DNA of 64,000 nucleotides from assembly GCF_018320785.1 (NCBI RefSeq), contig NC_054866.1, forward strand, positions 35,131,000-35,194,999, read 5' to 3'. A model generated the notes under the pieces. It searched no databases. It was not told the origin of the DNA and saw nothing but the letters and a program-made list of their open reading frames with translations. Every line of letters starts with the position of its first letter. Positions within the stretch are counted from its first letter, which is position 1. The position numbers were made by a program, and so were the translations under genes. This DNA is from Cheilinus undulatus (Eukaryota > Chordata > Actinopteri > Labriformes > Labridae). Below, piece by piece: positions 7,216-62,626 of the stretch.

Positions 7216-8449
7216 CTGCACAAATGAGGTACTCCACACAAATCAGCAACTCGGAACAACTTATTTAGAATGATCTTTTCTTGATTCTGAGCTTTTAATT
7301 CAAACCACATGACCAAGGCCAGTTTCTCTGCAATCACTGGCCTACTGTTCAATAATTCCCTTCCACTGTCTGTGAGGCTGGAGGAGCACAAGAGGGAGCA
7401 GTTACACCAACATCAGCTCATTGCCTGAGCTCTTGCTCAATGGGAAGCCATCTTTTGGTATAAACTCAAAATGTTTGGGGGAGTTAAAAGGTTACAGTAC
7501 AGATACTTTGTGACACTTACGATAGAAACACCTACGACAAAAAAAATCTGGAGTGTAGAAGCAGGACATTAGCAATCTGGTGAGGATGATGGGGCGCTAG
7601 CTTGGTAAAAAGAGGGCAAACTCTGGGAGTAGCATGTTTTTGGCCTAAAGGTTTTCTTTCTTATGGGCCATGGAATATTCATAAACAACTTATGTTAAAA
7701 ACTTGCATAAAGTATTTTCAGCTTTGGGAAACCCCTTCTTTATTATTGAAAATGGAGGAATTATGTTGCAAATTTTTAAAATTAAGTTGTGTTCACGCGT
7801 TTTAGCGTTAGTATTCATCACCTTACAATAAAAATAAAACTGATACGGTGTGCTAGATCTTAAGGATAGATTTTTGCAGTAGCTTGTGTTTATTTTTCCC
7901 AGCCTCACTCGGCCATTTTCTGCAAATGCAACAACAAAAAGCAGCACATCCATTGTTTGAAGGTGGCATGCTCTGACATGGCAGCTCGTGGGTTAAACGT
8001 GTCTCCTCCCTCTCTGCTGGCCAGACTGTGACGAGCTCAGGTGATAGTTCACCGTGCATACTCACGGTGCAGACCCCGGGCATCACACAAATGTGGGTGG
8101 GGTCGCTTTGATGCGCAAACCAGACGCCAATGTGCACTCCACGGTAACCCCCCCCCCCCCCTTAAAGTCCATTTCAAACTTCCCCCAAGAACAAACAGCC
8201 TGCAGGAGGAGGGAGACAGCAGAGGGAGGCGTGGGGGCTCCACTTTTCCTTAGTGCGAGTGAGAGATACTCAGCAGAGAATTACATAAAGCTTAAGGAAA
8301 CCCTGACTGGACAAAAAGTGTGGGTACGGGGTGAGGGAGCGAGCACTTGCAGGTCTACGAGTCGTGAGTAGGACCTTCTTTGACACGTATATCCTCCGAT
8401 TTCTTGTGTGCATCTTCTTCCTGTCATCCTCCTAGTATTCATTCTCATC
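7216..8449. other. Intergenic region and map6 5' flank
   Basis: No gene is recognised. From about 7980 the sequence becomes richer in G+C and CpG toward the map6 start, as expected for a promoter and 5' UTR. A 14-base poly-C run lies at 8148-8161. Overlapping short frames on both strands here are by-products of the higher GC content. The transcription start cannot be placed. Confidence 0.5.
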
Positions 8450-11400
8450 ATGGCATGGCCGTGCATCACGCGTGCATGCTGCATCAACCGCTTCTGGACC
8501 GAGCTGGACAAAGCGGACATAGCTGTGCCTTTGGTTTTCACCAAATACTCGGATGTGGCCGATGTGCAGCATCTTCCCCATCACCCACAGCCGAGGCAGA
8601 AGAGGGCCGGCGCCATTGCCATAGAAACCGAGCCCCATCCTGGCGGTGGCGAGCAGCAGGAGGCAGGGAAGGCACCGCCCGCGACGGGTGCCGCAGCGGG
8701 CAAAGATGGCTCTACTGCGTCCGTCATGCGCCAAGACTTCAAGGCGTGGAGAGTGCGCCCCGAGCCCAGCTGCAAACCCAGGAACGAGTACCAGCGTTCA
8801 GCGGCGCCGTTCAATAACGAAACGCAATATCAGAAGGACTACAAGCCCTGGCCTATACCGAAGAAGCACGACCACCCCTGGATCCCCAAACCTAGCCCCA
8901 CCGCCACCTCCTCTGGGGTCCCAGAGCGGAGCAGTAAGATGGAGCACACCGAGGCCGAGAGCGGAGTGGAGAAGAGCGAGATAGAGGAGAAAATTCAAGA
9001 GAAGGAAGCAAAGGAGGTGCCGAAGAAGAGCGTGGAGAGAGAAAGGTCAGCAGAGAGGCAAAGTGGAGAGAAGACGGAGGGACAAGTTTCTGCAGATGCA
9101 ATACGCGCCGAGCAGAGGAAAGGTAGAGCAGCTGCAGACGCGTTAAACAGGCAGATCAAAGAGGTGATGTCAACTTCCAGCAGCTACAGGTAAGAGTTTA
9201 TGGGAGTGACTCGACGAAACTATCAGAAAAAGCTTTACTGTGACTTTACAGCTTGTTCCAGGGTGCTGCAGTCAGGAGCTCCTGTTACAAAACAACCATA
9301 CAACTTTGCATTTGCCATACTAGCCTACTATGTCCACTGATAAATCATTTAGGCATTTTCAAGGGGGATTTGGTATTGCATGTTCTCTTGTTACAATCTC
9401 CACTGATTTCTAAAGCAAACTGATCCAGCCACTGTTAAAGGTTGCACTATTGATTTTTTTCCGCTTTATCCTCCCTAAGAGTACTATCAAATCAATGCTG
9501 CAGCCCATCAATGAGCCAGTAAAAGGGCCTGAATGTAATCATGTGTCTTAACATGGTTTTTCTGCACAGGCTTTCTCCAAATTAAACTGGAGATGCATAA
9601 TAAATGCACACTAACTAGATTCACTAGCTTCAGTCTGCCCTACTGAAATATTCAGGTTAACATAAACTGTACTAGTGACCTATATTATTATAAAAGCATA
9701 AACTAAATGAACTCACCCAACCACAATCGCAGACCAATAGTATTCATTTTAAGCAATAAAATAAGATTAAATATTATTTCACAGTCCAATAAGTGCCATA
9801 TCAAAAGTAGTGCAGAGGAGAAATAAAGATGTGAACTACTTGAACAATAATGAAAAGGTGCATTTTTATGCCCTCTCATTAGTTATTTTACTATTAGGGA
9901 TGTACAGTGCTGGATTTTTTGTTGATCTCCATTCACCTTCATTTACAATTAATTTCAGCTGAATATTAAAGGTGCAGTGTTTGATATTTAGCCTGGTTGC
10001 ATTTAGCAGAACACACTGTTAAAATATGGTAATAATTTTAAATAGGTCTTTCTAAATTAGTGTTGAATCACCCAAATAAATTACAAGGCTCCCCTCCTTG
10101 GACACCACCTCTGTTACTGATATTCCCAGTTTTACACACTGCACCTTTAATAACATATAAATGTGTTTCAGACCTACTGGATACTTTTGTGATACAGAAT
10201 AATGAATTGATTGAATTAGTTAAATTTGACGTTAGTTTTCTCATTACAACAAAAACAGTAATACAAGTCCTCTAAATGCAGTTGTTCTCAGGTGGTGGGT
10301 TGGGACCCAAAAGTGGGTCAAAGAGCTGTTTTTAGTGGGCCACAAATGTGTGCCTGAAAGAAAATCTGGTAAAAGTCTATGATGTATGGAATCACCAAGC
10401 AGATATGCATCCATTTAATTTCTTTTCAAAAATTTAGCTGTGATGATGAATACATTTTTGTTGTTTTCCCAAGATCTTGACTTATTCATATTATCTTGGG
10501 ATAACAGAGCTGATTTTCCTATGATTATATGTGAACTTCTCTAATTCTCTTTAAAACAACCAAAAGGTACATGTTAGCCAGTGGTGGATTTAGCAATTTT
10601 GCAGTCCTAGGCTTTCACAGAGATGGGGCCCTCCACATCCATTTCTCTGCCCCTTTTAAATTTACATATGTTAAAGAAAGTCCTACTTGTAATTTGATGT
10701 GAAAACAAATGATTTTTTTAGCAATGCATTTTGAACAGAAATGTCAAGGCAGATTGAAACACTGTCCATTTGGAGACTCTATATGGACAGCTGGTAACAA
10801 AATTACATCTGAGCTACGTAATACTAAATTTGCATGCCTATTACCACAACTTTACAATGTAGTCAAAGAAAAAAAAGGCTCCATTGTGGGTTTTTTTCTT
10901 AGTTTTTGGTCATGTTTTTTTTTCAACCAAAACCTGTCAAAAAGTGGCCAAATATATTTTATATGTTTATATATCTGTACAATATCTACTATAAAGTATT
11001 TGGTAAAATAACAGTTTCGCCAAATGACTTTCCTTTAGTGTTCTTTAAATGAAAAACTAAAAAAAGATAAAATTCACAGAAATATTTACATTTTATTATG
11101 TAAAGCTTTATGCCGCCATTCTATGACCAAGTTTACTTAAAATGTAGTGCTTTTATTGAGTATGTTAACCCTTTAAAATTGTAAACAGCCAGAATACAGG
11201 CCAGCAGGAAAAACGGTTGAGTTAGTTATGTGTTCAGGGTGGGCCTAGTAGTCCAGGGCCCTACGCATAGTCAACTTTGCTTAACGGTAAAGCCTGCCTC
11301 TTATGTTATCTCAGGAAATGGAGTAAAATAAAATCTATGCATGCATGTCCTCCCATGGCTTCTGTCATGTCGTGTTTATGAAACATGTTTGTTTATGTCC

Positions 11401-28208: not shown

Positions 28209-28769
28209 GTAAGAATTTTTTCGAAAATATCTTTCATTACCAATCTCTTAAACATTATTTGTGTTTTAAGTTTAAGTATTATGTTACGGTACGAAAGATT
28301 TCAATTATCTTACGGTTAAAAACGTTGTTAAACGTTAGGATAGCTGATGAGCAAAAGTCAAACCAAGAAGCAAACCTTTGAGGTTCACCGTTTTCTAATC
28401 TAAAGGACAGTTTACAGCCTTATTTTTATATATCATAAGAAGCTACGCATATCTAGCAGCTAGCTGGTTATTAGTCGTTACCAGTTTTGACATATATGAA
28501 TATTTTCAGATATCTTTAGCTAGAAAGATAGATAGTCTTATCTCAGTTGCCGTGAGCTCACTGACACTAGTTAAAACACTCGTGACAGCAAATTTGGCTT
28601 ACATTATGTTTTACATCGACAAAATAGTGTCCCAGCTACAAGCCGTGAAGCCTACATTTTTTTATCATTCGAAATGTTTATTATTGGGTCAAACTTAATG
28701 TTTTTTCTTTTAGGTGGGCAGGATTGGGCGTATGCACCAGCAGCAGCTGAGTAAACAGTTCTTACCATC

Positions 28770-31700
28770 ATGATGAAAACTAAGAGACAGGACAACTTCG
28801 AGGTGATGTGTGAGTGGGGTGGATGCGACTTCAAGGGACACACCATGGAGGAGCTGAGTGACCATATGTCTCTCCATTTAAAGGACTACCTTGGAGACAG
28901 TGATGCTTTAGAAGATCTGGGTGAGTGTCGGAGATTTCATTTAGTCAGGATATCTTTTAAGACCAAAATACCCCAATTCAGGGCAATTCAGTTAGTTTGG
29001 AAAAGGGGCTAGATCCTAAAAAGGATTTCATATGAAGGGTCTGAGAGATATCCCATAGCAGGCTATTTATAATATTTTGCTTTTAGTTTCTATCAATAGT
29101 CAAACTGTTTTGGATTTTCTTTTCTCCATAACAACCTCTACAGTTGATGCAAGCATACACTCCTTGATGGTCTTTGGAGCTGTAAATGGCTTTTTCTGTT
29201 TGCCTAATATCCATGTCACAAGTAGTGGTGCTCATTTAGCTATCTTTTATTCTATACAAGTGCAAGAAGAGTTTCATGTCTTTGCTCTTGACATAATGTT
29301 TGACCCAGAGTCTTTTTTACAGCAAAATCCAGAGCCAAATGGTGTAAAAGTTAGCAGGTGCCTCAGAAGGCCTTCTCAAGTTGAATCCCTTGCACAAACA
29401 GATATAAACAAATAGTTCTCCATCCACTTGCTGCTGAACCATCTGTTTTTTGCATTATTTGTTGTATTTTTTATGTAGAGTAGACATTTTGCCTGGCTTT
29501 CTGGCCTTTGTATTCTCAAGAACATCACCACAGGTGAAATGTGTGGGTTTAGATGCTGGAGCGGAGAGTTGACCAAACAAACTGGAAAATAGACGTTAAG
29601 GATGATCATACAGATATTAAACTTTCATCAATTTTATTAAAATCCCTTGTGTAGATCTTCTTACTTAAGTGGTCTACTTTAAGGACCAACCCAGCCCCAG
29701 GGTTTCCACTTTAATAGCACAGTCCTAATATGATAAAAAGAAGGAGACAGGGGAATCTTGGGTAATCACTGGCATCTTAAAAGTTTTTTTTAACATTTAG
29801 CCAATCCCTCACTTTGAGTTAATTCAGACAACTTTACTAGGTTTACTTTACATCAGTATCCTGTTAGAACAGTAATTTCTTCATCACAGTCATCACGCTC
29901 TCTTTCCTTGTCTAGATGAGTATGCTTGTCTCTGGACTGGTTGTGAGTTTCTATCCATGGGCAGCCCCACAGAGCTGGAAGTCCATGCTTACTTCCACAA
30001 CTACCATGGAAAGCTCAAGTTCATCGGATCTCAGCTCCTCAAATCCCGTCCTGATCTGCCAGTGTGCAACCAGGTTGTGCACAGCAACAACCAGGTCCCT
30101 GAAGGATCAGAGGGATACCTCTGCCAGTGGGAGAACTGTGATGTAGGTGTCTTTAATTTAAGCTATGCAATAATTGCCAAATGTTTCTGAGCATTATCTT
30201 TATACATGTGTGTTTTCATCTTCATACAGAGTATGTTCAACAACCCTGAGTGGTTCTACCGACATGTGGATAATCATGTTGAGAGTGCGGAGTCAGAGTC
30301 TCTCCCACAACAACAGCAGGCTCTTTTCTGCCACTGGACAGGTATGACTGAATTAGAAATGGGTTAAGGAGTTGTCCTGGTATGTATATGTCTCTTGCAA
30401 TGTATTATGTTTATGTCGTGTCTGCATTACAGGCTGTGATGCTTACTTCAAGATCAAATACCGTTTGAGGGAACACATGCGGAGTCACACTCAGGAGAGA
30501 CTCGTAGCTTGTCCTACATGTGGCAGCATGTTCTCCAGTAACACTAAGCTTTTTGACCACTTACACAGGCAGGCCGAGCCAGTAGGTGAGAGGGACATTT
30601 AACATGTTTTATGTTAATATACTGCATGCAATGTATCAGCATTGACTTCTGTGTCTCTCTTGTAAACAGAGTCGTTGGTATGTGAACATTGTGGCAAGGC
30701 TTTTTCCAGTGAGAGGCTTTTGAGAGATCATGTTCGTCAGCATGGTAATGATATTTTTTCTATTTTTGCCTTTAACTATGGTTAGATTGAACTTGATGAT
30801 TGTCAGTAGGAATGTTTAAGCTACGCACAAGTATGCAGCTATGACAACCTTGTATTTGTAGCTGTGATCTTTAATAATAACAACAATTAGTTAAAATCAT
30901 CAGACACTCAGGTTGTGTTTTTAAATATTATATTTAAGTTGCTGTTGGTAGTACAGTAGCTCTAAAAAGTCTATATGCCCCTGTAGAAATTGCACATCTT
31001 ATTGATGAAAATAATACCAAGATATAAACTTAGCACAAAATGTAAGAAAATTTGTGTTCAGTAGATTATTTCTTTATTGTAACAATGCTTCTTGGCAATA
31101 TATCTTATAACGCTGGGAAGCCTGTTTATTTCCCCTTTAATTGGTGCCACATTTGTAAGGAACATGTATTTGTGGGATGAGCAGCAGAGCTGAGTATGTG
31201 GGTTGCGCCTGTGAAAAATTTGCCAGATCTTCTCTGCCAATGCCAAACAGCTTATTTTGCTGTTGCTGTTGACTCTTGTTTTGTGCCTTTGGCACCTGTG
31301 AACATGGGTCCTGCTACAGTGGTCAGTAGGTGTCTGCTCCAAGAATTGGCATCCCACGTTTGACGGATCTGGATAGAGCAACTTCAAGCTGGTGTTCTGG
31401 AAAAAAAAAAACAAGTTGCGGCATTGTTTGAAGTGAGCCCTAGTACCATCTCCAAACTGATGGCCAAGTTGCATATAACGGGGAATGTCAGAGACAGGCC
31501 GCAAAGTGGGTGTCCCAAGAAGCCGCCACCCCCAAGAAGACCGTTTCCCCACCTTGTCAGTACTTAGGTACTGTAGGCTGTCTTCTACAGATTTGCAGTC
31601 CAGGTTTGCAGGACGATATGGCAGACGGCTCTCTGCCCAGACAATCCATAACAGACTGCACGCAGTCAATCTGGTGTCGGCAACACTGCACCGGAACCTG

Positions 31701-34700
31701 AACATGTGGAGGAACTTTAAGTTCAGTGATGAGTCTAAATTGTGCCTACGGCAGTTGGATCATAGGGTCAAAGTGTGGAGAAGACGAGAAGGCTATGCAG
31801 ATTGCTGCACCGATAGAGTAACTTCTTTTGGTGGAGGCAATGTGATGGTGCAGCATCTCCCTCACTGGAAAAACGAGGCTTGTCATCATTGGAGGCAATC
31901 TCAATGCAGAGAGATATCAAGATGAGATTCTGCAACCAGTGGCAAATCATCACAGTCTGAGACTGAACTCTATCCTCCAAGATGACAATGCGGGGTTTAT
32001 CAGAGACTACCTCCAGAATTTGGAGAGGATGGAATGGCCTGTCAGCAGTCCTGACCTTAACCCCATTGAACACTTGTGGGATCAGCTTGGGTGTGCTGTT
32101 CATGCCAGAGTGACCCACACAACCACGTTGGCTGACTTGTGAAAAATGCCGGTTGAGAATGGGATGCCATCCTACAGCAGTGTGTGACCAGGCTGGTGAC
32201 CAGCATGAGGAGGAGGAGGAGCCAGGCAGTTGTGGCTGTGTATGGTTCTTCCACACACTATTGAGGCTCCTATTTGTTAAATGAATAAATTGTTAAATTG
32301 CCAATGTGGCTTGTTTCTTCAAACTTCAATTATCCAGTCCACCAAACACCTAACATGAGTCAATGGTAGAATCAGCTGTTTGGCAGGGGCAGAGAAGATC
32401 TGGGAGATTTTTCACAGGCGCAACCCACATACTCAGCTCTGCTGCTCATCCCACAGATTCATGTTCCTTACAAATGTGGCACCATTTAAAACAGAAATGA
32501 ACAGGCTTTCCAATGGTATAAGATTTATTGCCAAGAAGCATTATTTCAGCATAGAAATAATCTACCAAACACAAATTACCTTACTTTTTGTGCTAAGTTT
32601 ATAATTTAAATCCTTTTTTTCCAATCTGACATGTGAATTATAACTCAGACAAATCTATTGAATAACAGAAGAAAAAATGATATACTGTAAGATGCATCCA
32701 GGCATTACTATTTCACATCACATAACATAAATGTTGAATTTCGACAGGGGTGTGTTGACATATCAGAGCAACTGTAGTTCATATGTTTTTTCTGTCTTAA
32801 ATTCTTACTGTGGCTGATTTGTAAAACTGACCTTTTGATTATTAAATATTGAAGATGTTAATTCATACATGAGTAAATCAGGTCCAACTTAAAGGCTCAT
32901 CAAAAGCAAATTGTCTTTAAAGACTGATATAAATCTTGATAAGATTGGGTGAAGTCAAAGCATTTTTTGATTTACAGACATCATTTGTGTAAGACTTGAG
33001 TTTGGATTTTTTTAAAATGTTTTTTATGTGACCAGAAACATTTTTTAAATCAGCTAAATAAATGCATTAAAAGGTGCAGAGGTGTTCAATGAAGACTTGA
33101 GCTGACCATCTATTTGACAGTTTTTAGTCTGCCATGTCATTGTTCTGATGTCAAGCTAGAGCCGTTTTTAAACAGAGATTCCGCAATAAAGGTGAAAAGG
33201 AATGCCCGTCTCTCTTCCACAACGAGCAATTCACACAAAGGTGTAACAGAGCCGTGCACGCATGAGACTACACACACACACCTCGGCGTCCTGTAATCAG
33301 ATGGCAGCCGCTGCCTGAGCTGCTGCTTTCAATGAAACTCGAAACTCTGGATTTCTTGGTTCAAAACTTTGTATTTCCTGAATGAAAATACTTTTTCATT
33401 TAGAAAATACAAAGAAAAGACTTTTTTCTGCCATATTTCTGAGTTGGAGGTCTGACTTTAAGCAGTGTCACAGCGCATGTATTTATCTTGGAGGTCGGAA
33501 ACTTCAGAGTACCGAGCTCACTTGAACACATCATGGGACTTTTCAGATGCTGCTGTGAGCAGAGATGTGTGTGCTCTCTCCTCTCCTGTACAGAGTGTGA
33601 TCAGCTCTCTAACCTCGCAGTCTCTCCAGTTAATCCGCATTATTCTTTGTTTTCTCCCGCTGTTGTTTTCTCTGAGGAAATGCCACTCGATTGAACTGCG
33701 CTGGTTTTTAACTCTCCCGTTTATGGAGACAGCAGCACACACTCGCCGTTGCGGGATACCATGACGTCCTTTCACACTCGTTGCGGGGAAAAGTCTGTTA
33801 TGGCTCTGATACTACCTCTTGATCCGGATCAGAGGTGGGGCGAGATCAACCCCCATTGCGGAACGTTCGCTTTCATACAGAACAGTGTTGAGGAATGAAG
33901 GCATAACAGACACAGAAAAGAGAGGCAGTGTGAAAGTAGCTTTACTCACATTACATGTGTTCTTGTTTCTTTCTCAGTGAACCAGGTGAAGTGTCCCTTT
34001 TGTGATATGACGTGCACCACTTTGGCAGCTCTAAAGATCCACATCCGTTTCCGTCACTGTGACGAGCGGCCCTATCCCTGTGACTTCTGTGACAAGAGGT
34101 AGTCTACAAATCAGCTGATATGTTGTTTGAACAGCTGTAGCATAACTACAGAGGTTTAAAAAAAAAAAAAAAAAAAAAAAACTTTTTACAGTTTGCACTG
34201 TGAGGGGTTTTCTCTTACAGTTGACATTTAAAGCAGTGATATAAAGGTTCCATTGTTTTGTTTTTGGGGGGGCTTTTCACACCTTTATTTTAAAGAGGAG
34301 GACAGTGGATAGAGACAGAAGCAGGGATGAGAGAGTGGGGGTGAGACATGCAAGAAAGAGGCCACAGACCGGACTTGTGTAAACCAAGTAAAACTTAACC
34401 ACTAGGCCATCTGCACCCCCAAAGTTTCCATGTTTAATTAAATGTTCTTGTTCAAAACTAGATCATAAAAGTTATAGTAACTATTCATAAGTATTAACAT
34501 TAAGATTTTTTAGAACTTCACAGGGTTCCTGCAAATCCTTGAAAAATCTTAAGTAGTCTGGAATTGCACTTTTGAAATTTAAGGCTTTAAAGATCCTGAT
34601 TTTCACCACTGAGTCGTCCTTAGCAGGCACTTGATAGGATATGTCCTTATCTAATTTTTGTTTTCTAGCCATCCATAAACAATGTTAAACATCTTCCCCC

Positions 34701-37249
34701 ACAAATGCAGGCGTTGGCTACCAGTTACGTGCTTTTGCATTGCAAAATAGTGACATAAACACAGAGGCTTTCTGGGTAAAAAAAACATGCTTCAGAAGAT
34801 TTCAATAGTGTGTACATTTGAGCCAACAGTGTTTTGTGGCCCATTTTTACCAAAAAACTTGCTAAATTCTCTGGAGAAACTGTACCCATCTATTTACACT
34901 GTATAGCCTCGCTTCCTGGCTGGTATAACCAGTCAATTTTTTTGAAAGCGGTGATGCTCATTGAAATCACTGGAGGCACATGCCACTTCTACTGCTATGT
35001 ACCTCATACGCATCAACTTTGGAAATACTAAAATATCCCTTTAACATGTTGTAATAATTGTAATATGATTATAAAGTTTATCTCCTTGCAATGTTTAAAG
35101 CTGATCTCTGCTCATAAAAATTGCATTTAGGATGTTTTTTATTCCCATGCTGGCAATCCTCTCTCCAACAAGTAAAGGCGAAACTTCACTTGCAGATAGC
35201 AACATTAAGCTACACCAGCTTTTCTGATTTCTATTTTTTAAACGATTGTTTCCTCTAAAATGCCACATATGAGCCCATTCCTGTTTGAATATTTGTGCTC
35301 TTTTAATATGTTTTCATTAAGCAGTTGAAAAGAACAAATCCTCAGCAGCTGACTGCATGCTTCTAGTAGTTTCTGACTTTGCAGCACATAAAAACAGCAT
35401 GTGAGCATGATTTTAGACCAGCTTGAGTTGCATAAAAAGATTTTATCTATTGCACATTAAAGAGCCGTAAAAACCAGTGAAGGTAACATTTCATTTTATG
35501 AAACTGATACATTAAAATTGTATTAAAAGTGTGAATTCGCCAATACAAATCTGCAGTCATAGCAGGTTTGTAGTATTCAAATGATGAAAATAATCATATC
35601 AAATTCTCATAAAATTTAGTTATGTTTTTGTCTTTTCATCAGATTTAAGAACCAGCGTGATCTCCAGAAGCACACAGAAGTTCACAATGAGGGCACCGTG
35701 TATCACTGCACAGTGGAGGGCTGTGATTATTCATGCCACACTTTCCCAACTATGAGCCATCACTTCAAGAGAGTGCACGAGGTTTGTTAGTTCTAAGTGT
35801 CTGAAACACCATCCTAATCATGTTCTAATCTTATAAAGAGTTACAGTATTGAGTTGTTACAGGCTTTAACCTGGATAATATTTACCAACAGGTTGGGGGA
35901 ATGTCCAAGTACAAGTGCCATATCTGTGATAAGGTGTTCTCCTGGTGTTACACTCTCACTCTTCATCTTCGCAAGAAGCATGAACTGAAATGGCCCTCAG
36001 GACATTCCCGCTTTAGGTAAGGTGCACTGACTTGTGTTATTGCAAAGATTGTGTTTATTCCTACTTGTTGAACCAAATGTTAGAAATTAAAGATGAGACT
36101 AAGTTGGTGCTCAGCATTTGTGACTGGTCCAGATGCACCTCATAGCAAGTGTGGTAAAATGTTTTAAAACCACTGGTTGCTGGATAAAAAGTGGGAAAAG
36201 TCACCAAAAGCGTTAAAGGAGAATTAAAGAGTATAACAGCACAAGGGAAACTAATGAGACCATAGGAACACTATGCTAAAAATATAATCTTTTCCCAGAT
36301 CTGCTAGTCAGTGTAGACAAGAAGTCCATCCATCCTTTTTCAATATTCCTTATCCCGTTGGGGGTCTCGGGGAGGCTGGAGCCTATCCCAGCGGTCATTG
36401 GGCGAGAGGCGGGGTACACCCTGGACTGGTCGCAGTCAATCGCAGGGCAGACATATAGAGACAGACAACCAGGCATGCTCACACATACCTGTTAATCTAA
36501 CAAGCATGGTTTTGGTGGTGGGAGGAGAGTACCCGGAGAGAACCCACACATGCACTGGGAGAACATGCAAACTCCACAGAAACTGGGAAGTGAGCCAGGG
36601 ACCTTCTTGCTGTGAGGCAACAGTGCCGCTGTGCAGCCCGTAGACAAGAAGTGCAGTGCAGAAATAACCTGGTTATAGAAAAGGAAGTTTACAGTTATTT
36701 TCCAAATCAAAATAGATTTTATATGAACCAGTGGGTACAGTAATGCAGCCAGGAGCATCAAATTTAACTTCATGTCAACCCCTTCTTTGTTGTATGTGTT
36801 TTCCTCAAAGGTACAGGAAGGACGTGGACGGCTTTCTAAAAGTAAACATGGTGCGCTTTGAGACTGTAGAAGTGACTAAGGAGATCATGAAGAACATGGG
36901 TAAAAAGCCACAGAGCCTTCGTAAAAGTCAGAGAACCAACAGCCAGAACAAGAGGATGGAGGTCCCGCCGGAGAGCGGTCTCAGCTCCCCTGCAGGATCG
37001 TCCTCGCCCTCCTCCTGCTCCTGCTCCTCCTCCTCATACTCCTCAGAGCTCTCTGGAGGGGAAGACATTTCATCTCAGCCCAGCCCAAGAGGCAGCGACT
37101 CCCCCGTCTACTGCATCATGAGCACCATCCCTCACATTGAGGAGGAGTCTAGAGGATTGTCTCAGGAGGACTGCGATGGTGGTGGGACGTCTGGTGCGGT
37201 GCAGGCGCTCACAGAGGTGGCGAGGGGCTTGGGGATGGATGTAGTGTAA
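28770..37249 (+). CDS. hinfp: Histone H4 transcription factor HINFP (MIZF)
   Basis: Nine coding exons join in phase: 28770-28920, 29916-30142, 30230-30341, 30433-30585, 30670-30744, 33978-34098, 35643-35781, 35892-36016, 36811-37249. Total 513 residues, close to human HINFP (517). It carries nine canonical C2H2 zinc fingers plus one atypical finger. The first four have the CXWXXC form (CEWGGC, CLWTGC, CQWENC, CHWTGC); the fifth, [21 protein letters not shown], lacks a normal last His, as in the family; five more follow, ending at [20 protein letters not shown], a HINFP hallmark. The C-terminal tail is Ser-rich (about 37001-37090) and less conserved. HINFP binds histone H4 promoters at the G1/S transition and interacts with NPAT and MBD2 in mammals. 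Two ATGs stand in tandem at 28770; the first is taken as the start. The largest intron (30745-33977) holds a Tc1 element and a foldback element. Confidence 0.96.
31023..32603 (+). mobile_element. Tc1-type transposon with about 230-bp inverted repeats
   Basis: Left repeat 31023-31252 and right repeat 32374-32603 are long, well-matched inverted copies (outer end TATAAACTTAGCACAAAA; inner end CTTCTCTGCC..CCAAACAGCT). Between them, + strand frames from about 31440 to 32250 encode a Tc1-like transposase: [20 protein letters not shown] around a catalytic Asp, then LQDDNAGF and [15 protein letters not shown], the usual D and E region. Stops and frameshifts break the frame. It lies in the sense direction in the hinfp intron 30745-33977. 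Long repeats of this kind resemble the IR/DR structure of fish Sleeping Beauty-type elements. Confidence 0.85.
33769..33936. mobile_element. Small foldback element next to a hinfp splice acceptor
   Basis: CTTTCACACT (33769-33778) is exactly inverted at 33927-33936, and GTCTGTTATG (33793-33802) is exactly inverted at 33902-33911, at nearly equal distances from the ends. The middle has a perfect palindrome TGATCCGGATCA (33820-33831). The right end is 41 bases before the acceptor of the exon starting at 33978. Confidence 0.65.
34268..34420 (-). mobile_element. tRNA-derived SINE, antisense copy
   Basis: In reverse complement it starts GGGGGTGCAGATGGCCTAGT, keeps CAAGTCCGGTCTGTGGCC in the B-box area, and ends with ATCCACTGTCCTCC..AAATAAAGGTG. 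It is the same family as 17551-17712 and lies in a hinfp intron. A 25-base poly-A run at about 34157-34181 precedes it but is separate. Confidence 0.75.
36325..36640. repeat. Abundant teleost interspersed repeat
   Basis: CATCCATCCTTTTTCAATATT, read in parts, then GGAGGCTGGAGCCTATCCCA, GGGCGAGAGGCGGGGTACAC and GGAGAACATGCAAACTCCAC form the well-known high-copy fish repeat found in both orientations throughout teleost genomes. It lies in the last hinfp intron. A decayed opposite-strand copy lies at 39090-39230. Class assignment (probably non-LTR derived) is from memory. Confidence 0.7.
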
Positions 37250-39264: not shown

Positions 39265-40197
39265 CAGTGCATTAAGAAAGTATTCAGACCTACTTCACTT
39301 TTTTTCAATTTTCTTATGTTACAGTCCGACGCTATAATAAAAAAAAGTATTTTCCTTCTTATTAATCTACTCTCAGTACTCTATAGTGACAAAGTGAAAA
39401 CATGAATGAGAAACAGAATGAAAATATCAAAAATGATTGGAGGCTGGAGATTTCTTACATGCTATCACACTCTTGGATATGTCAAAGATTAGTAACAACA
39501 TTGACTTTGATGCATTATTAGTTTTTGCGCAGTATCAGATTTGAATTTTTACTCCCTTTGGTCCTGGAATGGCTGTTAACAGCCACTAACTTTAGCTGCT
39601 GTAAAAACATACCAGATAAATATTTTTTTCTGCTTTTTTTTTTGCTCAAATCTCTTAATCAAGCTCAGTCCTGATCAAAACTAGTGAATATATATATATT
39701 TTTAAATATGGATTTTAACCCTTTAAATGCCAATTTTATAGGTGATGTCACTGATCTGGGGAAAAAACACACAAAATGACCAATTTTCAATATAAAAAAT
39801 TATCAGAGCCTGGAGATTTTTTATGTGCTATCACACTCTTGGAATGTCAAAGATTAGTAACAACTAACAACTAATAAAAAAAATCAATATTTTTCGTAAA
39901 TTTTCCCACAGTGTATTTTTGACTTTTTAAAATTTTGAAATCACAATTAAAAAAAACAAACAAACAAACAAAAAAACTCTTACTGTCCACTTCTGTTAAT
40001 GTGCTATTTCAGGTTTTTATTTATTACCTGAATTACCTTTTATTATTTCATAAATTTGAAAACAATTCTAAAATTCTGTTCTCACTTTGTCATTATGTAT
40101 ATAGTACTGAGTGTAGATTAATGAGATTTTTTTTTTCAATTGTAGCATAAGACTGCAACATAAAACTGAGAAAGTGAAGGGGCTCTATACACTATGT
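39265..40197. mobile_element. Non-autonomous Tc1-like element with internal direct repeats
   Basis: The left end CAGTGCATTAAGAAAGTATT is a known fish Tc1-type terminus. The right end, reverse complemented, repeats CCTTCACTTTCTCAG and TTATGTTGCAGTC, then the ATCTACACTCAGTACT and GACAAAGTGA blocks. Inside, a roughly 85-base segment (GGAGATTT..GCTATCACACTCTTGGA..GTCAAAGATTAGTAACAAC) occurs at about 39440-39505 and again at about 39808-39865. No transposase remains. It ends about 450 bases from the stop codon of the AUTS2-like gene. Confidence 0.65.
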
Positions 40198-40645
40198 ATG
40201 ATAGTTTAGACTTCAAATATCATGACGACCTTTTAAAACTTCCACATTTATGAAACTGGATCAGCAGAAAGCTAAGCTTTTTGTCCAGAGGGAGCAGAAA
40301 AATCAGCACAAACAGAAAATTCCTCAAATGAGCTTTAATATAATGAATAAAGCAAAAACAATAAAACAAAGAAAGCACTAACGTGGTGTAAAGTTCCCAG
40401 AATCCAACCAAGGAATCAAAACTTCAAAGTTTCACCTTTGTTTTATGAGGATTTTTCATTGCTTCATTAAAGCTCTAACAGATATTTTTTTGTTAATATT
40501 TGAGACTTTGCTTAAAAATGCTTGTACTAACTCCATTTTCATGTCCAGGACAGTTTGGAGTTCCACTGACTTCATGCACAGACCAGAGTGACCAGAAAAC
40601 TTCTTGTCATGGATGCAGTGGTTCTCCTGTTTTGTCCTTGGAGAC

Positions 40646-43600
40646 TCAATGTTCGAAGTGGGATGTCTGTAGAAAGCCGGGGTGTGGGAGCTGAGATCTA
40701 CTGAGGTAGAAACTATACTTCTGTTGGTATGGGTGTAGAAACTCCCTCCCTCTGCTGTAAACTGTCTCCTGCTGCCTCACAGCTAGAGGGAAGTGAAGAG
40801 GTGTAGAGGAGTAACCACAAAAAGCATCTTTGTGCCTCTGCGATACTGAAGGTATCCTGATCACTCTGCAGGGATTAGAGGAGTGGTCTCTTAGCACATT
40901 TTGTCTCCAGTAGAGGTCTGCTTTTTTAGAGTCCCAAATTGTTTGGTAGGGATGTAATTCAGCTCCTGGATAAGAAATGTTCCCACTAGGAGTTCTTCTA
41001 ACACTAAATCTATTACTGTAAGGGTACAAGGCAGATAATTCCCTCATTTGATGCACTGATTTGACGTGTGAAGAGTCAAAGCTGTCCTCCACTGATTCCC
41101 TCTTCAGCCTCTTTACTTCTACAAAGCTGTCACTCTCCAGCTGCCGCTTCCTATCAGTCGAGCTGCCAAGCCAGCCGTCAAGTCCAGCAGCCAAAGTCTG
41201 ATCCCAAGATCTGTCTCTAAGAGGTAAATCCTTTGTTTTGTTAATTTGTTGGCTCCTGCTTCTCTCCTTGTCATCAGGTTTCTCCTTCTGGAGCTCGTGC
41301 GGATGTTCAAGCTCCTCCCTCTTCATTGTCCCGCTTTGGCAAGACGACTGTGAAGATGTGTGGAGGTCAGAGGGATTCCTTTTCTTTAAGTAGTTTATAT
41401 CTTCTGCTGTTTTTAACAAGTGCCCATGTGGAGAGTCTAAAGAGCAGAAGAAGGTCAGATATTTTTCTGTTAGTGAACATATTTCTAATACATTTAGGGT
41501 CTTTAACTCACCAAGATTGCAGTTTATGCACAAGGACCCCTCTGATTCCTTGTGTTCCATTTTATCAGAGAGACTGCAGGTTTGATCCTCACGCTGCATT
41601 TTCTGTGAAAATAGGCAGTAACACTGTTAATAAGCTCAAGAAGGGATTATGATGGTCTGAAAATTCTAATTTTCTTTAAATTTGAACAGTTTTCCTACAC
41701 AGGAAGCTTCTTAGAAACACAACTTGTGCATTTTTCTACAAACTGTGTTTCTGATACTAACAAAAAGACTAAAATACTATAGGCATTGTTTTCTTATTTG
41801 TATGAAAAAAACATAAAAAACATACAACTGAATTTAGGTAGGGATGATTCCAAACAGACAAATATATTTTTACCTGATTCCCAAACTTTAGTTTGGAATT
41901 ACTTTTTAATTTCTCAAATTTATTTGGGATATATAGGACCTGATAAGTTTAAAAGCTCAGATTTGTCTTCAAACATGAATTAGTTTTGACCAAAAATAAT
42001 GTCCACAAATCTCCGGTAAGTCTTATTTCTGCAAAATATACAGCACTGGATAGGTTTTAGAGCATAACATGAGAGCAGGTCAGAGGGACAGAAGAGTCAA
42101 AATGTAATGTAGGACTACAAAGACTTGACTCAGCAAAGACTCAGCAACTTTCACATTACGAGTTTTGAATTTATTGAAAATTTTCCTCTCAAAAATCCAA
42201 ATAATTCCATAAAATTTCAAAGAAATAACCTATAATTTCTCTGAAAATTATAAAACATATTTGTAAATTATCTCACAATAAGTTCTTGAAAAGTTCTTCA
42301 AATATTCCCCAAAATTTTAAGTGAAACTTTACCATAAAATCTAAAAATTACATTAAAAAAACACCCAAAATTCCATATAAATTTGTGAAAATTTCAAACA
42401 AATTTCCCCAAAACACCAAATCAAATTTCCTCTAAAATCTCTTATTGAATTCCCCAAAATTCCCAAATGTATTCCAAAAAATGATGGGAAAATTCTCCCC
42501 AAACATCCAAGCTAATTTACAGGAATTTCCATGTAATTTTTTGAACATTTCATGAAAAAACATCCACACAAATTCTTAAACAAATTCCCCAATTTTACTA
42601 ATAATTTTCCCAAATTTTCATAAAATACCTTAAAAACTGAAACCAACCCCCACCCACCAACTCCCAAAAATTACAAATAAACTTCAAAATATTAATGCTG
42701 GAAAAACCCAAGGCAAATTTACCCCTAAAACGCCCCTAACTTTTCATTCTTCTTCTTTCCAGAATAAAAACCCCTCATAATCAAACAAATTTGTTACTGT
42801 TTATCACCCCTGCAGTTATTTTTGTAGTGATGCACGGTGTATAAAAGGCTCAGAAATTTAGGGGTAGTTAGAAAGAAGACTGATGCATCTCTCCATGCCA
42901 GAACACCCAAGCTGGAGCATCCCAGCCCCACCAGCCCGAGAACAGCATCTCCTGTCTGTGATTCTTCCTCTGTCATCCATGAGCCCCTGTGTGCTGCACA
43001 GAAGCCTGATCTGGAGCCTGATATGGTGAGCTCAGACAAAGCAAGGGGAGGTAAAATGTTGGTCCATAAATGGTGCCCTGTGGAGTCCACTGACTGTGTA
43101 TGGGGGTCATTCTATCAGAGTATAATGCTACCACTATATCAGCTGCCATTAGGCCTAGCTACATCCAGCTACTACGCCTCTGACGCTCTCTTCTATTGGA
43201 GGTTGATGCCAGAGTGGTAGAAGCTGGCGCTGTGCATTGATAATTTTGGGGTTCAAATTCTAGTCAGACGACATATGAAAGAGAAAAATGCTTGCTTTGT
43301 TATTCTCACTATTAGGAAACTTGACTGATTATTATGTATTTTGAATTATACTGGATTTAACAAACCAGTTGGTTTGTGTTTTAAGGGGAGGGGTGTTACA
43401 GCCACAGCTGTACTCCCTCTCCTAAAAGGTGACTAACCCCACTCTGGAGTGTTCTGTGTGTGTTTGCATTTGTGTGTGTGTGGTATGTGTGATGGTGTCT
43501 CCTCAAGGCTGAATCCCCTTCTCCTGTGCAGCCAGCTGTCAAGCCTGTCAGTCAACCAATCAGAGAGGAGCACCTGAGAACCTGCAGCCATTAAAGCTTG

Positions 43601-46600
43601 GCCACCTTCAGTCTGGGCCCAGCTTCATTTGATTCGGCCTGCCTCTGTGCCTTTTTGTTAGTATTGGTTTATCTGATATTGTTCTAACAGAACTTCCAGT
43701 TTATTTAACTTAGTATTTATTGTTAGGAGGCACTCATGCTTATCTCATCTGGGCTAGGAATTTAATTACCTTTAGGAGCACACACACACATATTCATTTT
43801 GGTACTTTTGCTTTGTTACATTCAATAGGTTTAGGGGTGCTGTTTCACTTGTATTTTGTGGTTTGGTTAGAGAGAGTAGGTAGCTAGGTTTTCTTTCCAT
43901 TTTGTTTCACTAAGATAAGGTAGCACTTGAAACTCTAGCTAGGCTCTCTTTTGCTCTAGTTTGTAATTTATGTAATCAGCACCCACATGCCCTCTCTGTT
44001 GCAATTTGCCTCACCTTTAAATTTGTAAACATTTTTACTTTTACCTTTTTTTTTAACTTCAAAAGTTACTTATTAAAAATGACTTTTGCTAAACCACACA
44101 GTCTGTTTTTATACCTCCCTATAACCCTTACGAGCAGGGTTATAACAGGGTTAACTGTTCATGCGCAAAACGTCACAGGCAGGATGCACCACCAGCACAC
44201 GCATCGAGAGCACAGTTGTGTGCTACCAATAAAGCATTCCTTTTACTCCTTTTCCATAGTCAGCTGAAATTAAACAGTAGTATTTTGATGGGTCTAAGTT
44301 CACTTACCACAAGTTATATTAATATTGTTTGAGCTTAATAGATTCACGTGCTGTATACAAGTCCGTTTGCAGACACTCTGATGCAGTGTTGTTATTTCGC
44401 CAGCAGAGGGAGCTCTCACTATCTGGGTTCAGATGAACCCTTGAGAACCTTTGAGTGGCAGGTTCTGCCTTTTGGCACTACATGTAGCCCGTGTTGTGCT
44501 ACAAACTCTCTACAGTGCCATGTTGTCAACCACATGGCGCCTTGAGATTCTCAGTTGAGAAATGCTTCTATGTTGACAATTGCCTTCAGAGTGTGAGCAG
44601 TCCAGGTGATGCAAAGAGGCTAGTGGACCAGCTCAGAGACCTTCTAGCCTCGGCTGGGTTTGACTTACGGCAACAGGCTTGCAATGAGACTGATGTCCTA
44701 AGCCCCTTGCTTCAAGAAGCCAGGTCTGCAAGCTTGGAGCTATTAGCCCAAGATAAAGCCAACCCCCTTGAGTCAACACTAGGCCTCAGCTGGAACTGGG
44801 AAACAGACTCTCTGGGCTACAAACACAGGCCAATAGTCTATGAAGAGTCAACCCCAAGAAACATTTATAAAGTCTTAGCCTCCATATACGATCCTTTGGG
44901 CTATCTCCTGCTATTCACCACCCAGGTCAAGCTCATTGTTCAGCAGTTGTGGGACAAACAGTGGGGTTGGGATGGCTCTAACTTACCCTCTGAGCTGCTG
45001 CAGGCTTCATCAATCTGGGAGTCTGAGTTAGTATCCCCTCCCCTCCTGTATCTTTTCTCGGGCATACCTACCATCAAAAGTCAATCATGAGAGTGCAATC
45101 TACAAAGTACACATCTTTGCAGACGCCTCTGAGCAAGACTATGGAGCTGTTGTTTACCTGAGGACTGAAAATCATGAAGGCAAGGCACACCTCTCCTTCC
45201 TTCTGGCTCATTCACGTGTAGCTCCAAAACTTCTGCAGTCCATCCCTCGCTTAGAGATCTGTGCAGCTCTTGTGGCATCCTAGCTGGCTCAGCTCCTAGA
45301 AAAGGAGCTCACCCTGAAGGTTTGTCGCACAGTGTTGTGGTCAGATTCATCTACAGTGCTGACCTGGCTCCAATCCCAGTCCTACCAGGTGTCTGCTGGG
45401 GCTAGAATAGTGGAGATACAAGAACTGACAGAGAACTGCACCTGGCGCCACATAGACGCTGCTAATAATCCTGCAGGTGACCTCACTAGAGGAAAGACCC
45501 TAAAAGCCCTCATTGAACCTAACAGGTGGTCACAAGGACCCCCTTTCCTTCTTGAAACACCAGAAACCTGGCCAGAGAGGCCCAGCCATGAAACATCAGA
45601 GGACAGGACAGAGCTTTGCAAAACAATGTTCTCAGGGCTAGCTACAACTGCTCCTATCGCATTTAACCCGAACAATCAGGAGTATCACACCTAGCAGGAG
45701 CTTCTAGATGCTACTGCTGAACACCTCCATGGACAGTCACCTACAAGCTCTCCACCTACTGCTGAAGAGTATCATCAAGCAGAGTTGGTCATCCTACAGC
45801 AAGCCCAACAACTCTCCTTCCCTGAGGGCTACAAACTCCTTGCAGCAGGGAAACCTGTCATCTGGAAGTCACCTGCTTACCTTAGTTCCCGAATTCGATT
45901 AGGCCACAAACCTTATAAGGGTTGGTGGCCAGCTTCGACGTGTAGCTGGTCAAAATGACTCCATTGTACATCCTGTTGTCCTAGATGCCCCACACAAGGT
46001 CACACACCTACTGATCCAGAAGTATGATAAAGACTTACATCACCCAGGCCCTTAGAGGGTCTTTGCAGAGCTGCGACGGCCTTCTGGATACTCCGTGGTC
46101 GGGAGGCAGTATGGAGGTATTGACACTCCTGTGCTGAACGCCAGCGCTGGAGAGCCAGGCCCTCCATCCCCAAAATGGCAGATCTGCCAGCTGCCCGCCT
46201 CCGATTGCACAAACCTGCCTTCTATTCCACTGGCATGGATTGTTTCGGGCCAACGACATGAGAACTGGGGCATCATATTTAAGTGCTTAACAACTATGGC
46301 TGTGAACTTAGAGCTTCATTGCCAGAAGAGGAACACCAGCAGAGCTTGGTCTGACTAAGTGACCAATTTTAAAGGGGGAGAAAGGGAGCTGAAAGAGGCG
46401 TTTGAAACCATGGCTACGGCCCTGCAGAAACAACTAAGTTAAGTTCCATTACAATCATCCAGCAGCCCCACACTTTGGAGGAGTGTGGGAACGAAAAGTC
46501 CGTTCTGTCAAGTCTGCACTTTATGCCTGTGTGGGAGCCCAACCTGTCCATGAAGATGTCCTCCTCATCATGCTCCTGGAAGTTGAGGCTGTGTTGAATG

Positions 46601-49600
46601 CAAAACCTCTGGGTTATGTTTCAGCCAATGTCACCGATCTGGACCCTGCTCACCTAACAGTCTGCTCATAGGGCGGCCAGATGGGTCGCTCCCACAAGTA
46701 GTCTATCCAGAGGCAGAGGTTCTGAGCCGCATTTGTTGGAGGCATTCACAGACTCTTGCTGACCAGTTCTGGTCCAGATTCATAAAGGGATACCTTCCTG
46801 GCTTACAGACCAGACAGAAATGGCACTCCTCCCCTCCTGAACTCCAAGAAAAGGCACTGGTCATGTTAGTGGATCCACAGTTACCTCGAGCCCTGTGGCC
46901 TATCGGACACGTTGCCAAGATCCATCGCAGTGATGATGGATTCATCTGCTCAGCTGATGTGAACATTAAAGGGCATATACACCGGACCTGTTGCCCAGTT
47001 GGTGATGTTACCAGCTCTTCCTGTCAGAGAGGATGACGCTTAGGACTCCTTTAGATCTACAAAATAAGCCTTTTACATGAAGCAAATGTGCACTGCACAT
47101 TCCGGGGCGGCTGTATAAAAGGCTCAGATATTTAGGGGTAGGTAGGGTTAACAGCTCATGCGCAAAACGTCACAGGCATGATGTTTTCAGCACGTAAGTC
47201 GCTAAGAATTCACTGCGGAGCCCAATGTGCCACAATCTGGGGCTTAAAGTTGTGCACAGTACTGTAAATTTGTAGCAGATATCAGAGGGAAAGTTAATAT
47301 CTGGTGTGCAGTCAGGGGCGGCAGGGCTAGCCCTGCTAGCACTGTTTAAAATGAAACTGGTATATTTTTTTCATAATTAAAAAGTTTTGCTGAAATGTAT
47401 GTGGAATCAGTCACTAGTCTGGTATGCATCTCTATCCAGAAAATGAATTGTTATATTTTGTGGCGCTGAACAGAAATTTGTCCTAAACGCATCACAGCTC
47501 CTTTTCTCTGCTTGGGGACAGCCCACCATAAGCCTGATTTATGCTTCTGCGTCGCTTCGACGGCGTAGCTACGCGTAGCCCTCTGTGTTGACACGGACCC
47601 CTACTCCATAGCCTGACGTGCACCTCCAAAAAATCCTAACTATGCGTCATGGTCACGCGGACCGCAAGGGCTGTGATTGGTCTGCTCAAAACGTCATTAC
47701 CATAAAAATTCACCCATTCTCAGCCTCGACTCCTTTGGTGGCTGTACAGACCACCTCCACAAACGTCTTCCCTGTTGCCTGCGCTTCAACATTTGCAACA
47801 AAAGAATTTGTTTGTCGATATCGATGAGCTCCAACTCCAAACACACCTGCTCCACCTCGGTCGCCATTGTTTACTGTGAACGGGAGATAAACAAGGATTC
47901 AGATGTGACCCCTCTGAAACCACACACACACACAGCCACACCCCCCTAGCAGCATGGCGGTGAATTGCAGAGCAACGTGTTCCCAAGATGCAAAACTTTG
48001 AATGGTCAAAGATGGAGTTGCATCGACGGCGTAGACCCATTGCAGAAGCATAAATCAAGCTTTTGGGCCAGTGGAGTTTTTTGTGCTTGCCTGGGTTCAA
48101 ATGAGTGGAGGTGATTGGCCCATGGGCAGGTTCAACACGATGACTCATTGTTGACCTGATATTATGGTAATGGCACTGGATTTGACAGCAAGCATTGACA
48201 GAGTTACGGACCTGCTTGGGGTGCCTTTTTCAAGGCACTTGTTTGCTGAAAAGAAGGAGATCAGCTAAACTAAATCTTAGCTTAGCTTAGCAAGAGGAGG
48301 ACCAAAGCCAACAAATGCTTTGTGCACCATTTAACAGCGGCCAATTATGATTACTATGAGTGGTTGACAGTAAGCCCGGAGCAGAACAAGCTGTTTAGCT
48401 GGACCTGTCTGCTCTCTGGTACAAGCCCTGGCACACGGCATAGCAGTGGACATAGCCATGTCAGCAGGTTCACCAGGGCAGCTGTTAAACCTCAGGTATC
48501 GGACCATCACATTATAAATGTCATTTGTTTAAAATCAATGGTTGTGGTCAGAGCGGTTCATCGGGAAGGTTTACAGGATGGATTTCATCCAGAAGTGATG
48601 GATGAGTGCTGGTTTTTTCTCTGGATAAGATTGGCGTTGCTTAAATATGCTTTTGGCGTTATTTCTAGGTCAAAAGTTAAACTATGTCGTACACTCTCCC
48701 ACGCATGTGCATGCACGAGCACACACACACAAACATTAAGAGGTGATTAATTTGCTTTCCACAGGAAATACTGTGGTCATGTGTTTGGCATGTATATTTA
48801 AAATAGCTTATTTTGGCTATTTAAAGTAACCTTGAAATAGTTTGGGGATATTTTTGAGTCTATAAAGAAATTAATTTAATTTTAGGAGGGATTCAGAAGT
48901 TTCCTCCATGGGTGTTGGTTACTGCTGGCCCTGATTGAAACTCCACCGCACACTACTGGTATCTGGTGATACTGATAGTTAACTTTTTAAAGTATTATCT
49001 ACCACTACTGATATCATGCCAATAATAATGTGCATCCCTACTCTTTGGGGTATACAAGATGGTTTGTTGTATTTCTTTTATTGCTTCAAACTGGGTCGAC
49101 AGATTTTAGGCCTGGACAATCATCGGGGGCCCATATTCTGTATTATCTGTATCGGTGTTTAATCTCACTATAAGCCCATAAGCTAACAGATGAAAAAATG
49201 CATTACTTTGGCTCCATGGCAATGTGTATTTCCTTATTGTTCAGTATTTGATCACTATTGTAATTTGATTGCTCTAGACATACATCTAGACATACAAAAG
49301 TCTCAAAACTTTTGCTCTTTAGCAGCTGATCTGCTAAATTGATTTCATATTGGTTTCAAATACCATTTATCGGTCTCATGAACTACTAATAATGGGTATC
49401 AGATCGGCCCTAAATATCAACAGTGGTCAAATCCCTATTTTAAACTTAATTTGCATCGCTGTTACTCTGCCTTGCAGCAAATACGCTTGTGTCATGTTAA
49501 TGTAGAGTACCTTGATTTATAATGCTTACTTTACCTTTCCTTTGCTGTATATCATTGAGGGGTTTACAAAAAATGACCAGTTAGATTCGACTTTGTAAAT

Positions 49601-50365
49601 CAGGTAGTCAGGGACATCCCCTTTATTTAAGTTTTGAAAAACATATAATTTTAAAGCTTTTAATTATGATGGCTTTGTAGAATACATTTTAACTGACTTT
49701 ATCTTCACAAAAAAAGTGATGCAAAATTTGAAAAAAAGGGTAAAACTTTTAGTGTGTACAGTTTAATTCTTAATGCCTTTTTACTTCTTACCTTAAATCT
49801 CTCATGGTAGTAAATCTTCCATGCAATGCAGACATGCAGTGCACCCCACCTCCCTCGTTTCTGCAAGAAAAAATGAGAAAAAATGTGAGAGCTGAACTTA
49901 AAAATGTACTCATTATCAAATTACTTAGGTAAAATAGTTTAACTATCATACATTTTGGTTGCTGATTTGACACGTCATGTTTCGGCCAGTGTATTTCAGA
50001 CTCACTGGGCTGAAAGACGTCTGTGTTCTCTGGAAAGTGGCGATGGGAGCAAACAAGGGCCGGACTGTCCCTCTAGAAAAGTGTGTCTGAAACTGCAGCA
50101 CGAAACAAAAGGTAAATTCAAATTATTCTTGGTTACAAAGAAATAACATTCAAGAAGTGGCTTCAGGTGATAAAAGTGCAAAACAGGATCAAAACAAATA
50201 AACTGCTGATAAACTTGTGAAACATGAGCTTACATTATTGTCCTGAGTTTCCATTGGTGCAGAGGGAATGGTCACAGGTTGGTGCAGAAAGGGAGTGAAG
50301 GCGTGAAGGTGAGCGTGCTGAATCATCTGATGTTGATGAACCAGGAAGGGCAAATTAGAAGAGAA
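40646..50365 (-). CDS. Divergent AUTS2/fibrosin-family protein, 3' exons
   Basis: Exons on the - strand in transcript order: 50365-50234, 50092-50006, 49860-49792, 41602-41512 and 41436-40646 (stop at 40646-40648). All join in phase with good splice sites and give 389 residues. The first has a His-rich stretch ending HAHLHAFTPFLH, matching the AUTS2 HQH..HTFTPFPH region. The third, RGRWGALHVCIAWKIYYHE, matches the AUTS2/FBRS signature GKW-A-HV-IAW-IYHH, followed by ERFK-KMQ as in the family. The last exon is charged (KREELEHPHELQKEKPDDKE) and has YPGAELHPYQTIWDSKKADL, comparable to the family's YPSFHWDPIRDPLRD region. AUTS2 proteins join non-canonical PRC1 complexes and recruit CK2 and p300. 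The Gly/Pro-rich central part of AUTS2 is largely missing and overall divergence is high. The upstream exons are not found. Whether it is fbrs, an auts2 paralogue or a fish-specific branch is open. Confidence 0.75.
42160..42720. repeat. Degenerate CAAATTCCCC-type repeat block
   Basis: Repeated CAAATTTCCCC, AAAATTCCAT and AAATTCCCAAA units. The reverse complement of about 42395-42420 (GGTGTTTTGGGGAAATTTG) closely matches 38172-38190 (GATGTTTTGGGGGAAATTTG), so the two blocks are inverted relatives on either side of the 3' exons of the AUTS2-like gene. Confidence 0.6.
43394..44146 (+). mobile_element. Probable BEL/Pao long terminal repeat
   Basis: It starts TGTTACAGCCACAGCTGTAC after a purine-rich run (AAGGGGAGGGG) and ends GAGCAGGGTTATAACA, so it has TG..CA termini and is about 750 bases long. 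It stands about 200 bases upstream of BEL/Pao pol remnants in the same orientation. No second LTR was found downstream, and the flanking 5-mers do not match. Confidence 0.55.
44348..47035 (+). pseudogene. BEL/Pao retroelement pol remnant
   Basis: Broken + strand frames in order. Reverse transcriptase: FEWQVLPFGTTCSPCCATNS near 44448-44510, then the YVDN active-site variant near 44569. RNase H-like: about 45115-45500, with LWSDSSTVLTWLQS (45334-45375) and an H..DAANNPAGDLTRG motif. Integrase: a zinc-binding-like area at 45990-46120, a later VWERKVRSVKSALYA segment at 46483-46530, and a C-terminal domain ending near 47035 (ALWPIGHVAKIHRSDDGF at about 46891-46944). At least six frameshifts or stops break it, and gag and protease are not recognised. 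Related 30-60 base flanks occur at 42837-42866 with 44147-44185, and at 47112-47180. Confidence 0.8.
47531..48061. mobile_element. Non-autonomous DNA element with TGATTTATGCTTCTGC termini
   Basis: The left end AGCCTGATTTATGCTTCTGC and the right end, in reverse complement AGCTTGATTTATGCTTCTGC, are near-perfect inverted repeats. Both are followed by a CGACGGCGTAG block (GACGGCGTAGCTACGCGTAG on the left, CGACGGCGTAGACCC on the right). Length 531, richer in GC and CpG than its surroundings, with no transposase. The superfamily is uncertain, possibly PIF/Harbinger. Confidence 0.75.
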
Positions 50366-58299: not shown

Positions 58300-58640
58300 T
58301 CACAGAAGTCAACAGCTCTTTCAAAGGTGTAATCTGGCTCGAGCTGGTTGTCCTGAGCAGCCCCAGACAAATTAGGCTACCCTTCTATTGGATCCCATTA
58401 AGCAAAACATAAGACGATGATTGGATGAGGCTTTGGGAATACGTGTTCTCCTTGATTAGCTAATTCCATTCTCACTAACCATCCAAATCCTGTTAGTATG
58501 GGCAGGGTTAAAGCTGCTGCTCCGTCAAGGAAAAGGCCTCACCCTGCCTGAACCATTACCCTTTACAAGTCACAATGAAGCCAAGAGCCAAGATTGATCA
58601 TAACATTAATGGATGCTTCTTGATCAGCAGAAAACCTCAA
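58300..58640. other. Possible conserved non-coding stretch
   Basis: Non-repetitive, balanced-composition sequence with no coding frame, between the foldback copy and a Tc1 remnant. It stands out from the AT-rich surroundings. Conservation cannot be judged from one sequence. Confidence 0.2.

Positions 58641-62302: not shown

Positions 62303-62626
<324 letters not shown>

Follow-up and report, generated by a model that had tools for sequence, protein, structure and literature searches.

A reduced AUTS2-family gene with an intact open frame, probably a teleost auts2b that still codes for protein

Introduction

Whether the second auts2 copy of teleosts survives as a gene or as the wreckage of one is a question on which the published accounts disagree. 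The copies auts2a and auts2b are traced to the genome duplication of teleosts (Merdrignac et al., 2022, PMC9454499), and a review of the AUTS2 protein family describes a consensus on its conserved function as lacking (PMC9008325). According to Kondrychyn et al. (2017, PMC5555464), a coding gene is predicted at the auts2b position in the teleosts examined beyond zebrafish and cave fish, apart from fugu, for which none is reported. These reduced genes are portrayed as diverged almost beyond recognition, with one conserved exon and a highly diverse remainder; transcripts are reported from amazon molly, platyfish, and tilapia (PMC5555464). In the 2022 survey, by contrast, the auts2b loci of the eight acanthomorph species looked at, with exon 9 as bait, are called non-functional remnants of a gene lost about 150 million years (My) ago, and ongoing loss is suspected in pike from low auts2b expression (PMC9454499). 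Here, this question is taken up for a locus in a 64-kb stretch of DNA, referred to as the window, in which a compact and strongly diverged AUTS2-family gene had been predicted.

Gene structure and open reading frame

The gene occupies positions 40646-50365 of the - strand, and its five exons were reproduced exactly at 50365-50234, 50092-50006, 49860-49792, 41602-41512, and 41436-40646. The coordinates, strand, exon number, phase compatibility, and 389-residue product of the original prediction were all recovered from the sequence; its "five junctions" are corrected to four, as five exons give. Joined, the exons form a single open frame of 389 codons, which is confined to frame 0, the other two frames containing many stops. 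All nine splice sites are canonical (AG at 5/5 acceptors, GT at 4/4 donors), and the exon phases are compatible. With 389 codons open and the splice sites intact, the stops, frameshifts, and lost splice sites that define a pseudogene were not found.

Exon 1 (50234..50365, - strand) contributes 44 codons with phase 0 at both ends, two in-frame ATGs (50326 and 50254), and an HX-type (His-X) repeat with the HAFTPF motif, HQHQMIQHAHLHAFTPF (50288..50338). Exon 2 (50006..50092) adds 29 codons in phase 0, and exon 3 (49792..49860; 69 nt) carries the Auts2 core, KRGRWGALHVCIAWKIYYHERFK, in 23 codons. After intron 3 (41603..49791), which measures 8.2 kb, exon 4 (41512..41602; 91 nt) ends in phase 1 and leads into exon 5, which extends with the stop codon over 40646..41436 and comprises 262 whole codons and one split codon. 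The exon 5 product is basic (pI 9.2) and Ser-rich, with no recognised domain. A pattern scan of the same strand located basic clusters, RKR and KRLKR, at 41099..41152, a putative nuclear-localisation signal, and a candidate poly(A) signal, ATTAAA, at 40334..40339, which lies 307 nt past the stop and is a pattern match alone.

Exon 5 lies within an open stretch of 326 codons. Dinucleotide shuffles of positions 40001-42000 produced open stretches of at most 219 codons and reached 326 in 0/1000 cases, and shuffles of the whole window, scored on both strands, gave a maximum of 204 codons and reached 326 in 0/60. Both sets rule out a chance open frame for exon 5, across which the other five frames contain 11 to 21 stops each.

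The protein would have up to 389 residues, or 376 with translation from the first ATG of exon 1 (50326), the context of which is poor. Translation may begin at this codon, in which case the latter half of the HX repeat would be retained, or in a further 5' exon. Upstream exons were sought in the 13.6 kb at 50366-64000 through splice-site filters and inspection by eye, the N-terminal part of AUTS2 being covered by no profile; 3 strict and 24 loose candidates passed the filters, none of which resembled AUTS2, and three His/Pro-rich stretches in the same interval were not convincing as AUTS2 exons. The exons, their phases, the open frame, and the core match are read directly from the DNA, and from them we infer that the five exons are spliced together and translated.

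Membership in the AUTS2 family

The profile search proposed along with the original prediction gave a match above the cut-off. The 389-residue product reaches 25.5 bits against the Pfam family Auts2 (PF15336; cut-off 23, E 1.6e-5), the sole family matched, and multiplying the E-value by the 250 open stretches of at least 60 codons in the window still leaves about 4e-3. Exon 3 scanned alone attains the same 25.5 bits, and the 23-residue core therefore supplies all of the profile evidence; neither exon 1 nor exon 5 had a Pfam match by itself, and nothing was added to the score by exons 2 and 4, which were scanned as parts of the product. The match spans positions 1-41 of the 218-position domain, and exon 3 alone spans 1-21 at equal score. 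Most of the domain is absent, which argues against a typical Auts2 protein and not against an origin within the family.

The exon structure points the same way. The core occupies an exon of its own, which begins and ends with whole codons (23 codons, phase 0/0). Published AUTS2 exon 14 corresponds to residues 645-668, exon 9 of zebrafish auts2b encodes 24 residues (PMC5555464), and exon 14 is reported to align with the element that AUTS2-related proteins conserve best (Sellers et al., 2020, PMC7732068). By its profile match and its size, exon 3 is the counterpart of these exons.

Upstream of the core, exon 1 has an HX repeat of the form HQHQ...HAHLHAFTPF. As a lead, five provisional AUTS2 segments were aligned with the product, of which the core segment was checked against Pfam (189.1 bits to Auts2). 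The segment containing the HX repeat and the residues downstream of it aligns across exons 1-2 with a score of 74, and the core segment aligns with the product at a score of 84; in both cases 0/500 shuffles of either side did as well. The His-rich HAFTPF segment of exon 1 is followed by the core of exon 3, in the order that had been claimed, and the Pfam match, exon structure, and open frame together bear out a compact, strongly diverged member of the family. Human AUTS2 and teleost auts2a (1259 to 1282 residues) share the order of HX repeat and core and likewise keep the core in its own exon, but a counterpart of their N-terminal part was not recognised in the window and their C-terminal domain cannot be significantly aligned here.

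As had been predicted, the C-terminal part is barely alignable. Scores against the other provisional AUTS2 segments were 48 for the RERE segment (23/500 shuffles of the window protein and 40/500 of the segment as good or better), 39 for the C-terminal-core segment (35/500 and 35/500), and 33 for the far C-terminal segment (262/500 and 250/500). No significant similarity to the AUTS2 C-terminal domain emerges from these segments, and a weak relation may exist. The tail of about 290 residues is basic and probably disordered, without significant AUTS2 alignment. Among solved structures there was one match, a p300/p63 entry over exon 5 (E 0.95), which was taken as chance.

Neighbouring genes and assignment to auts2b

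One plus-strand gene in the window starts with MAWPCITRACCINRFW and is taken by us to be map6; its map6-like exon (8384..9193, + strand) is an open frame with no Pfam match. A C2H2 zinc-finger gene (28755..37249, + strand), presumably hinfp, has Pfam zinc-finger matches on one piece, which fall below the cut-offs. The hinfp-like gene (ending at 37249) and the auts2b-like gene (ending at 40646) converge tail to tail, with about 3.4 kb between them. Among the published auts2 neighbours considered here, hinfp does not appear, and no report placing it together with auts2b was found in the open-licence literature searched.

The genes med13, vmp1, cltc, and map6 are reported near teleost auts2 genes (PMC9454499), and of this block a map6-like gene lies in the window. 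Given that auts2a is reported to resemble human AUTS2 closely, the reduced copy is interpreted as auts2b. The linkage to the map6-like gene and the reduced architecture thus suggest auts2b rather than another member of the family, and the "fast-evolving fish paralogue" of the original prediction can be named as the auts2b ohnolog, whose reduced form has been published for several euteleosts (PMC5555464).

The pattern fits the reduced auts2b of Kondrychyn et al., which makes the locus a further instance of a published kind (PMC5555464). In both, a single exon, some 24 residues long and part of the Auts2 domain, is conserved amid highly diverse surroundings (PMC5555464); here, that exon has 23 codons, exons 1-2 can also be aligned with the provisional HX segment, and placement near auts2b neighbours depends on the tentative naming of one gene, map6. 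Zebrafish auts2b (748 residues) likewise encodes an abbreviated Auts2, in which the HX repeat is shortened and exon 9 is conserved (PMC9454499). In comparison, the present protein is about half as long, and neither the Auts2 domain beyond the core nor the C-terminal part is recognisable. The acanthomorph remnants belong to the same family, are linked to map6 (a map6-like gene here), and were recognised by the same exon; they are called non-functional (PMC9454499), whereas the present copy has an intact 389-codon frame and canonical splice sites. Searches for relatives in viral and prokaryote contigs by means of exons 3-5 produced 14 and 37 pattern stretches, respectively, none of which was confirmed.

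Intron 3 and mobile elements

Intron 3 contains the remains of a BEL/Pao retrotransposon (44147..47183, + strand), antisense to the gene, which account for about 3 kb of the 8.2 kb. The element is broken, its frames are interrupted, and a 40-nt direct repeat (93%) is present at both ends. Among its four scanned open pieces, Peptidase_A17 (E 1e-9) and DUF5641 (E 1.7e-19) were found above the Pfam cut-offs on separate pieces, one piece had an RVT_1 match below the cut-off, and one had no match.

Traces of other elements occur elsewhere in the window. At 2302-4266 (+ strand), an uninterrupted open frame of 654 codons matches DUF4371 weakly, at 27.6 bits where the cut-off is 32.1, and is perhaps a transposase-derived gene. 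Tc1/mariner-like transposase remains lie among the hinfp-like exons at 31479-31925 (+ strand; a sub-threshold HTH_Tnp_Tc3_2 match, 19.2 bits against a cut-off of 31.5), and a fragment at 59005-59220 (- strand) appears Tc1-like by eye, with no Pfam match at E 0.1.

Alternative identities and the age of the open frame

Two other identities for the locus were weighed. The domain is common to AUTS2, FBRS, and FBRSL1 (PMC9454499), and one short core cannot separate the three, which leaves room for a divergent fish fibrosin (fbrs) or fbrsl1. The map6-like gene in the window speaks against this assignment, map6 being a published neighbour of teleost auts2 (PMC9454499), as does a reduced architecture that fits the published reduced auts2b (PMC5555464); the "little-annotated fish fibrosin" also entertained in the original prediction is disfavoured by this linkage, and a fibrosin identity is very improbable. 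The gene might also be two things, with exons 1-3 as leftovers of auts2b and exons 4-5 as parts of an unrelated gene, or joined to them in some transcripts only. Exon 3 by itself accounts for the Pfam score, exon 5 has no match, and a retrotransposon separates the two blocks within an intron of 8.2 kb. Both blocks nevertheless share a strand, the phase-0 end of exon 3 meets the one frame in which exon 4 is open, and the phase fits again from exon 4 to exon 5, which makes such a division improbable, if somewhat less so than a fibrosin.

A more serious challenge to auts2b as a coding gene is that of a decaying remnant which makes no useful protein, its frame open because constraint ended recently in the lineage. 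The finding of non-functional loci in eight acanthomorph species and the suspected ongoing loss in pike are in its favour (PMC9454499), as are a protein that is mostly unalignable and a 5' coding exon that was not recognised in the 13.6 kb upstream. On the other side stand the 389 codons, four donors, and five acceptors, all intact. How long they would stay so was estimated through a simulation of neutral decay that starts from the present CDS and includes substitutions, frameshifting indels at 7.5% of substitutions, and 16 splice bases, with 1500 trials per point and assumed rates of 1e-9, 3e-9, and 5e-9 per site per year. The frame survived unbroken in 4.6% of trials at 20 My (1e-9), 0.9% at 10 My (3e-9), and 1.8% at 5 My (5e-9), and in 0/1500 at both 50 My and 150 My for all three assumed rates. 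If the sequence is that of a spiny-rayed fish, it follows that the gene has not been unconstrained for 150 My under the assumed rates; under the same rates, a release from constraint within the last few million years may be compatible with the intact frame. Overall, a remnant is unlikely, although it is the likeliest of the three alternatives.

For a measure of codon usage, the map6-like and hinfp-like exons served as the training set. In frame, exon 5 reaches -0.087, higher than in any of its other five frames (-0.14 to -0.30); the value is -0.257 for exons 1-4 and -0.138 for the whole CDS, where background sequence gives -0.459 (sd 0.072, 262 codons). Since the off-frames of exon 5 also lie well above background, base composition explains much of the signal, and codon usage is only weakly coding-like.

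A proposed role beside Auts2a

Taken together, the locus is probably a reduced teleost auts2b ohnolog of the AUTS2 family that still codes, and its product would act as a small nuclear adaptor of the AUTS2 type. AUTS2 is known to join non-canonical PRC1 (ncPRC1) and to recruit p300, and mutations in the HX repeat disrupt the p300 interaction (PMC9008325). The original prediction also proposed that part of the PRC1/p300 interface may have been lost; the short HX-type repeat that is still present here is the part linked to p300 in human AUTS2 (PMC9008325). The short C-terminal isoform of AUTS2 has no HX repeat, and two groups are cited as reporting that it does not bind ncPRC1 (PMC9008325).

The predicted protein retains a short HX-type repeat together with the exon-14 core, is missing most of what lies between and beyond them, and ends in a basic tail. 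In the proposed mechanism, its basic clusters, found by pattern scan, could direct it to the nucleus. The HX-dependent contact with p300 and the contacts that depend on the core might then be kept while other Auts2 surfaces are lost. Such a small adaptor could modulate or compete with full-length Auts2a, and hence influence Auts2a-dependent transcription.

Significance

The locus matters beyond its annotation in that the copy is intact, though the 2022 survey calls the spiny-rayed copies non-functional remnants (PMC9454499). The intact 389-codon frame speaks for the view of reduced auts2b as a predicted gene (PMC5555464) over the remnant view. If its orthologues are intact too, they would amount to a natural minimal AUTS2, showing which pieces selection keeps, namely the HX repeat and the exon-14 core. 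It can be suggested, tentatively and as something short of the favoured expectation, that spiny-rayed fish have in their reduced auts2b a selected, repurposed mini-AUTS2, maintained as a small regulator beside Auts2a, in which the HX repeat and core were kept and the C-terminal half was replaced. If that were true, the published date of gene loss would instead mark a change of function.
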